NCBI GenBank assembly: GCA_027315165.1
Contig: DAHUYN010000005.1
Location: 1-64,000 of the forward strand
Direction: 5' to 3'
Source: Thermoplasmata archaeon
GTDB lineage: Archaea; Thermoplasmatota; Thermoplasmata; Lutacidiplasmatales; UBA184
DNA length: 64,000 nt
This document shows positions 6,308 through 36,600 of the stretch, in pieces; the stretch's first letter is position 1; the number at the start of each line of letters is the position of its first letter. The notes under the pieces were generated by a model. It ran no database searches and was not told where the DNA came from. It saw only the letters and a list, made by a program, of their open reading frames with translations. Position numbers and translations under genes: made by a program.

Positions 6308-7723
6308 CTACTTTCGGCCCTGCGGTCCGGCGTCCGCTACGCCGTCGAGGTCGCCCGCCGGGGGTGGATACAGCTTTCCCGGGTTGAGGATCCCGTCCGG
6401 GTCGCAGGCGCGCTTGACCTCCCGCAGGAGCCGGAGGCCGGTGGCCCCGAGTTCCTCTCGAAGGAACCGGGGCTTCACGAGCCCGATCCCGTGCTCGGCG
6501 CTCACCGTGCCGCCGAGCTCGAGGCAGGCGTGGAGCAGCCGCGCGCGGACGCGCTCGCCTTCGACGCTGCCCGGCGCGACGACGAGATTCGGATGGAGGC
6601 TCGCCTCACCGAGGTGGGCGAAGGTCACCGACCGGACCCCTTCCTCGGCTGCGATCGCCCCGAGCCGGGCGAGCATCTCGTCGAGCCGGGAGAGCGGTAC
6701 CGCAAGGTCCTCGCGGAGGCGATTCCCGAGCTCTCGGTCGAGCGCGACGCCGCTCTCGCCCCGCACCGTCCACAACCGGTCGGCCTCGGGGAACACGAGC
6801 GGGTCGCTCGTGACGCCGCCGGCCGCGAGCGCCGTGACGAGCCGGGCGAGGCGGGCCTCCTCCTCGACCTCGTCGGAGCTCTCCACCTCGAGGAGCAGGA
6901 GAGGCGACCCGCCCGGGAGCCGCGCGCCGGGCGTCCGGGCGAGCGCCGCCGCGCACTCGGCGTCGAGGTACTCGACGGCCGAGAGCCCGGCGGTCGCCGG
7001 CGGGAGGAGCGACGCGACGAGCCGGCCGAGGCGCACGCCGCCGGGCAGCGGTACGACGAGCCCCATCCGCCGCCCCGGCCGGGGCGCCAGCGCGAGCGTC
7101 ACCTCCGTCACGAGGCCGAGCGTACCCTCCGAACCGACGAGGAGGCCTAGGAGATCGGGTCCGACCGAGCGCTTCGCCGCGCGCGAGCCCGCCCGCAGCA
7201 GCTCCCCGGTCCCGAGAACGGCCTCGAGCCCGCGCACCCATCGGCGCGTCGGGCCGTAGGCGAACGACCGGGGGCCGGAGGCGTTCGTCGCGACGTTCCC
7301 GCCGATCGTCGACGAGCGCCACGAGCCCGGGTTCGGTGGGAAGAAGAGGCCGTGGGCGGCCAGGGCGACGTTCAGCTCGTAGTTCACGACGCCCGGCTGG
7401 ACGCGGGCGACCCGGTCGACCGGGTCGACCTCGAGAAGCTGGCCGAGCCCCGACAGGTCGACGACGACCGACCCTTCGGTCGCGACCGACTCGCCATCGA
7501 GCGACGTGCCGCCGCCTCGGGGGATGAGCGGGATGCGATGGCGTCGCGCCCACGCGACGAGCGCGAGGACGGCCGACGTCCCCGTGACCGTGACGACCCC
7601 GGCGGGCGACCCGGGAAAGTGCGACCGGTCGCGGCCGAGCGTCTCGAGCGAGGCGGGGCTCTCCGAGAGCGCGATCCCCTCGAGGCTCGCGAGCTCGTCG
7701 CGCGCCTCGCTCCCGAGCGACAC
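6308..7723 (-). CDS. FAD-linked oxidase of the GlcD / D-lactate dehydrogenase family
   Basis: 471 residues. The N-terminal FAD-binding type 4 domain shows PRGGGTSLDG and STIGGNVATNASG, and the C-terminal FAD-oxidase domain ends SAEHGIGLVKPRFL and DPDGILNPGKLYP, all family hallmarks. It should oxidise a 2-hydroxy acid such as glycolate or D-lactate. The metal/substrate loop usually written HxGDGNxH reads HLGEASLHPN here, so the Asp and Asn are changed, which may alter substrate or acceptor. No GlcE or GlcF subunit genes are adjacent. GTG start. Confidence 0.88.
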   Translation of the reverse strand: MSLGSEARDELASLEGIALSESPASLETLGRDRSHFPGSPAGVVTVTGTSAVLALVAWARRHRIPLIPRGGGTSLDGESVATEGSVVVDLSGLGQLLEVDPVDRVARVQPGVVNYELNVALAAHGLFFPPNPGSWRSSTIGGNVATNASGPRSFAYGPTRRWVRGLEAVLGTGELLRAGSRAAKRSVGPDLLGLLVGSEGTLGLVTEVTLALAPRPGRRMGLVVPLPGGVRLGRLVASLLPPATAGLSAVEYLDAECAAALARTPGARLPGGSPLLLLEVESSDEVEEEARLARLVTALAAGGVTSDPLVFPEADRLWTVRGESGVALDRELGNRLREDLAVPLSRLDEMLARLGAIAAEEGVRSVTFAHLGEASLHPNLVVAPGSVEGERVRARLLHACLELGGTVSAEHGIGLVKPRFLREELGATGLRLLREVKRACDPDGILNPGKLYPPPAGDLDGVADAGPQGRK

Positions 7724-7771: not shown

Positions 7772-8167
7772 TCAGGGCGACTCCGCGGCCTTCTCGCTCG
7801 AGGGCGGCGAGCGGGTCGGCGGGTCGAGGACCTCGACGAGCTCGTGCACCGCGAACGGTCGACGCAGCAGTCCGGTGACGCCGAGGGCCCGGGCGTGAGC
7901 CTCGATCTGGGGCGAACGGCTGGGCGTCAACAGGATGACCTGGGCGTTCGGATGGGCTCGCGTCCAGGCGCGGAGCGCGTCGGCCCATCGCGGCTCTTCG
8001 AGGTCGGCATCGACGAGGAGCACCGGGTCGCCGCCGTCCGTGGGGATCTCCCGCAGCACCTCGGGCCCGAACCCCTCGGCAACGACCCGGTGGTGGTGGA
8101 GTCGTACGAGCCCCCGGAGGAGGAGACGCGTCTCGTCCGTCCCCCCGGCGATCGCGACGTGCTTCAT
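7772..8167 (-). CDS. Single-domain receiver-like (CheY-type) protein, probably degenerate
   Basis: 131 residues with the alpha/beta pattern of a response regulator receiver and no output domain. The phosphoacceptor Asp is present in VLLVDADLEE (about residue 54) and LLTPS fits the conserved Thr/Ser strand. The first-strand acidic pair is replaced by Gly-Gly (VAIAGGTDE) and the conserved Lys before Pro is Arg (LRRPF), so phosphorylation chemistry is doubtful. The upstream side holds a strikingly ordered inverted-repeat structure (8182-8280), which would lie in the leader of this mRNA. No histidine kinase is nearby. Confidence 0.7.
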   Translation of the reverse strand: MKHVAIAGGTDETRLLLRGLVRLHHHRVVAEGFGPEVLREIPTDGGDPVLLVDADLEEPRWADALRAWTRAHPNAQVILLTPSRSPQIEAHARALGVTGLLRRPFAVHELVEVLDPPTRSPPSSEKAAESP

Positions 8168-8181
8168 GCCTGTCGGCCCGT

Positions 8182-8280
8182 CGGGACCCGATCCCGGAGG
8201 GCCTCTCCCCTCCCACCCGGCGGGAGGCCTTTCGGGCGCGGGCCCGAAAGGTGGAGAGGCCGCGGAGACCAAGTCCGCGG
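8182..8280 (-). ncRNA. Candidate structured leader or RNA: perfect three-way junction plus flanking hairpins
   Basis: Helix P1 pairs 8200-8208 with 8253-8261 (9 pairs), P2 pairs 8209-8214 with 8222-8227 (6 pairs), and P3 pairs 8228-8237 with 8242-8251 (10 pairs, loop GCGG). All are perfectly complementary and abut, leaving only T8252 unpaired in the junction. Flanking hairpins are 8182-8186/8192-8196 and CCGCGG at 8260-8265/8275-8280; the latter competes with P1 for two bases, so two conformations are possible. The minus strand is preferred because the receiver gene starts at 8167, 15 bases past the structure, but transcription direction is not proven. Confidence 0.6.
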
Positions 8281-8301
8281 GCCTGCCTCTTGTGGTAGGA
8301 A

Positions 8302-8332
8302 CGACCGACCTCGGATTATGAAACTTCGGTCG
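8302..8332. promoter_or_regulatory. Dyad flanking a TATA-like element upstream of the receiver gene
   Basis: CGACCGA (8302-8308) and TCGGTCG (8326-8332) are exact inverted repeats around an AT-rich TTCATAAT read on the minus strand. It could be an operator over a weak minus-strand promoter, whose start near 8290 would just precede the three-way junction, or simply another hairpin. Confidence 0.35.
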
Positions 8333-8430
8333 AACGGACGTCGGGGTGTCGTTCGGCCCCCCCGGGCGCGACAGCCTCGGCGGCCCGGGACGGACCCGTG
8401 ACGGTGCCGGCGCACCCTCCACGGGGCCGC

Positions 8431-8442
8431 AAAACTATATAG
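8431..8442 (+). promoter_or_regulatory. TATA box with A-rich BRE-like flank
   Basis: AAAACTATATAG. The A-rich flank on the left favours rightward transcription, with a start expected near 8465, directly before the long hairpin at 8473-8532 and about 185 bases before the next protein start. The TATATA core is symmetric, so leftward use is possible but less favoured. Confidence 0.7.
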
Positions 8443-8464
8443 ACAGCCACAGCGTTACGGAGTT

Positions 8465-8550
8465 TGGCCTCGGGCACCGGTGGGGTTCGACGGGCGGCAG
8501 CGTCCGTTGGGCCCGTTGACCCCACCGATGCCTTCCCTGTCCTCTCTTGT
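8465..8550 (+). ncRNA. Candidate small RNA or 5' leader forming one long hairpin
   Basis: A promoter at 8436 points at this segment. Bases 8473-8495 pair with 8511-8532 as one helix: four pairs, one C-A mismatch, then 17 pairs including two G-T wobbles and a bulged C8488. The apical part 8498-8509 adds a small stem with a GTCC loop. A pyrimidine-rich run (CCTTCCCTGTCCTCTCTTGTT, 8531-8551) follows and could be a termination zone. It is either a stand-alone RNA or the leader of the zinc-ribbon gene at 8651. Confidence 0.5.
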
Positions 8551-8650
8551 TCCGGGGCGACCTCTCTAATCGCGTCCCGTGGGAGAGCGCCGACCCGCGC
8601 TTCCGGTGCGGCGATAGGTTCATCCGACCGGGTCCACGAGCCTCGACGCG

Positions 8651-36287: not shown

Positions 36288-36600
36288 CGCTAGGCTAGAC
36301 CGGGGGGTTGGGCGTCCCCTTATACACCGAAACCGTCCTCAGCGGGGGTGACAGGTCGGAGCGACGCTCGGAGGAGAGGTCCGTCTCGCGTGTCTCCTAA
36401 GACGCTCTGTTCCATCGGGCCGCGGGCATCGCGACGGGCGCTCGGAGGAGCGCTCTAGCGGTTATCCATCACGGGCACCGGGTCAGGTCCTGACGGGAGC
36501 AGCCTTACCGTGACCCGTCGACGCTGGTGGGGCGACGGGGCCGAGGAGCGCGCGGGAACCACGGACCCCTTGTCCGGGCGGCCATCCGACCGGCCTAGCA
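36288..36600 (+). ncRNA. ffs: Signal recognition particle (7S) RNA
   Basis: About 313 bases. The 5' domain has GCTAGGC, GGGGGGTTGGGCGTCCCC and ACCGAAACC, the archaeal SRP RNA Alu-domain pattern. The SRP54-binding helix 8 is at 36481-36504: GGTCAGGTCC, loop TGAC, GGGAGCAGCC, with the conserved asymmetric-loop bases. GCTAGGC at 36289-36295 pairs with GCCTAGC at 36593-36599 to close the molecule. The apical tetraloop TGAC replaces the usual GNAR. It scaffolds SRP54 and SRP19 for co-translational targeting. Ends are estimated from the TATA box and closing helix. Confidence 0.92.

Follow-up and report, generated by a model that had tools for sequence, protein, structure and literature searches.

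The window, by which we mean the whole 64,000-nt stretch of DNA analysed here, carries on its minus strand a degenerate receiver-domain gene whose leader folds as a three-way junction RNA, followed by a FAD-linked oxidase gene that is probably its operon partner. Upstream of the junction, and divergent from it, lie a zinc-ribbon gene and a second conserved RNA. An archaeal signal recognition particle RNA at 36288–36600 (plus strand), the only Rfam gathering-threshold match in the window, marks this DNA as archaeal.

6308–7723, minus strand: FAD-linked oxidase gene (Pfam FAD_binding_4 and FAD-oxidase_C), downstream of the receiver gene with a 48-nt gap
7772–8167, minus strand: degenerate receiver-domain gene, 131 aa, start codon at 8167–8165, with the junction in its leader
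8182–8196, minus strand: short 5-bp hairpin CGGGA-TCGGG-TCCCG between junction and start codon, an alternative to the basal helix
8200–8261, minus strand: three-way junction RNA
8261–8253 (GGCCTCTCC) with 8208–8200 (GGAGAGGCC), minus strand: P1, 9 pairs, from sequence
8251–8242 (CCTTTCGGGC) with 8237–8228 (GCCCGAAAGG), minus strand: P2, 10 pairs, loop CCGC at 8241–8238
8227–8222 (CCTCCC) with 8214–8209 (GGGAGG), minus strand: P3, 6 perfect pairs
8209–8227, minus strand: P3 hairpin, loop N-CCGGG-U, with the invariant apex C-CGG-G at 8220–8216
8260–8280, minus strand: flanking CCGCGG hairpin, CCGCGGA-n7-TCCGCGG, 5′ of P1, with bases 8260–8261 common to P1
8314–8323, minus strand: TATA-like element TTTCATAATC
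8435–8442: TATA box CTATATAG of the second RNA
8466–8537, plus strand: second hairpin RNA, divergent

The description of the receiver gene as degenerate in the original prediction was borne out. Its match to Pfam Response_reg (PF00072; E 7.9e-4, 20 bits) falls below the gathering cutoff of 30.2, and among 15 aligned orthologues the switch lysine is replaced by arginine in nearly all, while the phospho-aspartate position is variable and lost in some. The receiver-like protein family, which adjoins the RNA in the window’s genus, also has a conserved motif, GG(S/T)xETRLLLRGLLRLHRH. A FAD-linked oxidase gene follows the receiver gene in most orthologous loci, and most likewise retain the arrangement zinc ribbon, RNA, receiver, oxidase. 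A/T-rich elements comparable to the minus-strand TATA-like element occur in relatives (for example, GGTTCATAATC in L007 and L009), and from the 29–30-nt TATA spacing of the divergent RNA we predict that transcription of the receiver leader starts near 8293.

Fold of the leader in the window

The junction consists of helices of 9, 10 and 6 pairs, with A 8252 as its sole unpaired base; read on the minus strand, the 9, 6 and 10 perfect pairs and the zero, zero and one unpaired junction bases originally described were exact. P3 can be lengthened to 8 pairs (8227–8220/8216–8209) through a G-U and a C-G pair, closing a CGG triloop. Folding of both strands, proposed as a check on the structure, placed the junction within the minimum free energy (MFE) structure of the minus strand (8168–8300; −86.3 kcal/mol, z = −4.9), with none of 200 shuffles equally stable and with ensemble probabilities of 0.99–1.0 for the P1, P2 and P3 pairs. 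The plus strand was also stable (z = −5.05) but adopted a different shape; as both strands fold well, the stability of a single sequence cannot settle the strand, which is settled by the comparative data below.

In the window’s fold the flanks of the junction pair into a long basal helix beneath it, and the receiver start codon is mostly unpaired. The basal helix was present in the MFE structures of some relatives. Base pairing beyond P1 and the context of the start codon were without clear conservation, and no obvious sequestration mechanism was visible in them. The flanking CCGCGG hairpin is present as predicted and overlaps the closing helix by two bases. A switch based on competition for those two bases was not upheld, as the overlap is not conserved and the alternative fold is ~12–13 kcal/mol worse. 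In relatives, P1 usually has 5–7 pairs and the outer pairs that overlap the hairpin are mostly absent; several relatives, not all, have a local hairpin at this position. In the window the hairpin has an ensemble probability of ~0, the two folds are not comparable in energy, and the MFE structure places 8260–8280 in the long basal helix instead of a local hairpin.

Covariation and strand of the junction

BLAST of the element’s DNA against 41 relatives did not find it, apart from one short weak piece, and orthologous leaders were therefore traced through the receiver protein: receiver orthologues were gathered from 78 genomes of the genus and their upstream regions inspected. The junction was found in 12 orthologous leaders, beginning 86–101 nt ahead of the receiver match and keeping the same structure at a mean identity of 59% (minimum 39%).

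We aligned these 12 leaders by hand (alignment A2); the alignment was fitted to the structure, with absent positions written as N and a few letters omitted, and so leans towards it. In A2, 95.2% of 269 cells were paired and both sides had changed in 19 of the 23 pairs (60 cells). The covariation score was 0.686, against 0.225 for shuffles and 0.08–0.19 when the partner strand was slid. None of 500 shuffles matched the alignment in any of five measures, and sliding the partner left only 45–56% of cells paired. Compensatory changes thus go well beyond the controls, and the paired covariation in homologous regions on which the original prediction staked the element is strongly present. With close relatives removed, the seven remaining representatives were 97% paired, with double changes in 21 of 26 pairs. 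A blind MAFFT alignment (A1) recovered P2 and P3 but not P1, with a compensatory change in 11 of 15 pairs, and in an alignment-free test the MFE structure contained a junction with P3 as its last arm in 9 of the 12 leaders, compared with 1.6 expected when everything but P3 was shuffled. Taken as comparative evidence, this shows a real, conserved structured RNA whose shape is kept while nearly all letters of its arms change. The region is very GC-rich, and such DNA yields many perfect short repeats, as chance folding would have it; that explanation is refuted by the covariation and the shuffles, and its probability is negligible.

Among the hand-assigned pairs read on the receiver-sense strand there were 20 G-U cells and no A-C cells. 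As G-U pairs would become C-A mismatches on the opposite strand, the RNA runs in the same sense as the receiver gene. The same asymmetry bears on whether these repeats could be palindromes that act at the DNA level, forming a cruciform or serving as operator sites, and merely resemble RNA. The inverted repeats do lie near the promoter, and a hairpin sequence of more distant relatives, GGCGGGACCGGGCCCGCC, is nearly fixed, but stems replaced by compensatory changes, together with the G-U excess, point to selection on one RNA strand and make this reading very improbable. The junction region is not coding: its distance to the gene varies modulo 3, and stops occur in or near the junction in several species.

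Distribution and relation to known RNAs

A covariance model of the junction (R1) matched the window’s own genome, which is in the training set, at E 1.0e-11. The 12 junction genomes all matched at E 1.6e-7 or better with exactly one strong match each, and all 12 matches lay at the same place and on the same strand upstream of the orthologous receiver gene. R1 found nothing comparable in the other 66 genomes of the genus, and no strong match outside the genus in a class-wide search of 300 genomes. Weak matches that might have been further copies of a regulon (L159–L164, E 0.003 to 0.07) were not accepted as members: that in L159 is antisense to a FMN-dependent oxidase gene, and the remainder look coding-like or are without the full fold. 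The junction could also belong to an independent small RNA, transcribed from the minus-strand TATA-like element, released before the start codon or by processing at it, and acting in trans. The compact fold, the TATA-like element of its own and the single copy per genome would suit such an RNA, but the junction always lies immediately 5′ of the receiver gene and in the same orientation, which speaks against it, and the leaders show no conserved terminator or other boundary separating the junction from the ATG; we consider it unlikely.

Inspection by hand showed that a second genus of the family, which shares the gene order, also has the junction in the orthologous leader of at least four genomes. 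When pairs were assigned by hand in four genomes, 91 of 92 could form; the gene lies equally far away, and the P3 apex reads UCCGGGA. R1 matches in two loci of this genus, L155 and L150, had E-values of 2.8e-5 and 6.2e-4 over 31.6 kb (27.1 and 22.3 bits); because background matches of R1 in whole genomes reach ~25–27 bits, the extension to this genus rests on position and not on score. These junctions surfaced only through inspection of the orthologous place, so R1 is not sensitive enough in the second genus. In two other genera (g20 and g21), receiver homologues lie behind another coding-like stretch and have no such leader. We conclude that the junction RNA is confined to a portion of a single Thermoplasmata family, probably within the Lutacidiplasmatales.

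Searches of Rfam release 15 with 8150–8650 of the window, on both strands and at gathering and permissive thresholds, gave no credible match, and two relatives (L033 and L035) gave none at E up to 2. A limited search of the open-access literature turned up no work on RNA in these uncultured soil archaea. The original suggestion was that this is not a recognised riboswitch and could be a novel cis-regulatory or small RNA; a novel structured RNA in the receiver leader agrees with the strong covariation and the lack of an Rfam match. We conclude that the junction RNA is a new, previously undescribed family of leader RNA, which we infer to act in cis; its novelty is judged against Rfam 15 and that limited open-access literature. 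Few structured mRNA leaders have been described in archaea. Structured candidate cis-regulatory RNA motifs have been found by comparative genomics, such as the flpD motif of Euryarchaeota (RF01737) and crcB (RF01734) (Weinberg et al. 2010, PMC2864571). Like these, the junction RNA has a covarying structure in the presumed 5′ UTR of one gene family and a function that is predicted; unlike them, it matches no Rfam family, theirs included, is confined to one Thermoplasmata family and has almost no conserved bases outside one apex.

The divergent RNA was found by pattern in 31 of 33 loci, with 29–30 nt from TATA box to start where a box could be located. Its 15-nt apical loop is near-invariant (GGCACCGUCCAAGAG in most relatives), and its stem is 96.3% paired, with double changes in 9 of 16 pairs. 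Model R2, built for this RNA, found a single copy in the window’s genome and matches in 48 of the 300 class genomes, almost all of them from the same family: 36 in the genus (the window’s included) and 11 in three other genera of the family. Nothing credible matched it in Rfam. We regard it as an undescribed RNA at least as well supported as the junction. The relatives that carry it are MAGs of the Thermoplasmata. Among them are UBA184 and SubAcS10-22, both assigned to the soil-archaeal order Candidatus Lutacidiplasmatales (PMC9287336), to which the window’s own genome probably belongs too.

The P3 apex and its possible role

The only invariant columns of A2 are those of the P3 apex, C-CGG-G; the sequences of P1 and P2 vary freely, and the junction bases differ in number and identity among species. 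A CCGGG-loop hairpin of at least 5 pairs occurred in 11 of the 12 three-way-junction leaders, compared with 0.34 expected from shuffles, and in 11 of 21 other orthologous leaders, compared with 0.51 expected, although the loci are related and these are not 11 independent events. We propose the P3 CCGGG hairpin as a putative recognition element. Because P1 and P2 are free, the junction is variable and only C-CGG-G is fixed, the RNA reads as scaffolding for the display of a single recognition element and not as a ligand pocket.

Riboswitches are commonly built as three-way junctions in leaders. Like the purine, TPP and other three-way-junction riboswitches, the RNA described here has three helices that meet in a compact junction within the leader of an mRNA, and it precedes a signalling-like gene and an oxidase, as might be expected if the junction were a metabolite-binding pocket that controls translation or transcription. 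Against this, its junction bases vary where ligand pockets are conserved, leaving the P3 apex as the one invariant part, it occurs in a single gene context and it has no Rfam match; we consider a metabolite riboswitch quite improbable.

We favour instead, giving it about an even chance, a structured leader that acts in cis on the receiver mRNA and offers its P3 CCGGG apex to a trans-acting factor, with an effect on translation or mRNA stability. The 5′ UTR of the receiver mRNA (probably a receiver–FAD oxidase mRNA) would fold into a Y-shaped three-way junction, standing in the window on the long basal stem. P1 and P2 would act as a sequence-free scaffold from which P3 holds out the CCGGG(U) apex, and this apex may be bound by a trans-acting factor, more likely an RNA-binding protein than an RNA. 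Binding of the factor, or its absence, would then change translation or stability of the receiver mRNA. Pairing of the apex with the divergent RNA was considered and rejected on inspection, as the complementary ACCCGG is missing in some species and sits in a stem. Hairpins in mRNA leaders can serve as protein-bound operators, for example as the autoregulatory translational operators of ribosomal proteins. The junction RNA resembles these in that a covarying stem presents an invariant short loop; it differs in that a protein binding the CCGGG loop is here postulated and in that the gene encodes a receiver-like protein.

The leader might also be passive, with the junction shielding the mRNA’s 5′ region against exonucleases or keeping the start codon clear in the absence of any regulator. 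Its few conserved unpaired bases, its very stable fold and the short hairpin near the predicted 5′ end in distant relatives fit such a role. A passive leader would have no need of an invariant CCGGG apex, kept across two genera while the stems vary freely, and we find it doubtful. Extending the factor-bound leader, the junction may belong to a new archaeal regulatory RNA family that shows its CCGGG hairpin to a lineage-specific RNA-binding regulator and is paired, across a shared promoter region, with the family-wide second small RNA, the whole forming one regulatory unit around the receiver–oxidase operon; this broader proposal is rather unlikely. Strong compensatory change backs the junction RNA, a covariance model for it is already at hand, and the CCGGG apex stands out as the one element to test.

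In the genus’s other clade (L013, L014, L016, L017, L020–L024, L037 and L038) the junction is absent, and a hairpin with an NCCGGG loop, often the sequence GGCGGGACCGGGCCCGCC mentioned above, lies just upstream of an in-frame ATG. This hairpin is probably the counterpart of P3. Between close relatives the structure has either shrunk from a three-way junction to a single hairpin or grown in the opposite direction, which provides a natural experiment in the evolution of leader RNAs. In four genomes of the second genus (L168–L171), ~106 nt before the receiver gene, the P2 and P3 loops both contain CCGGG in three and UCGGG takes its place in the fourth, which looks like a doubling of the recognition element.
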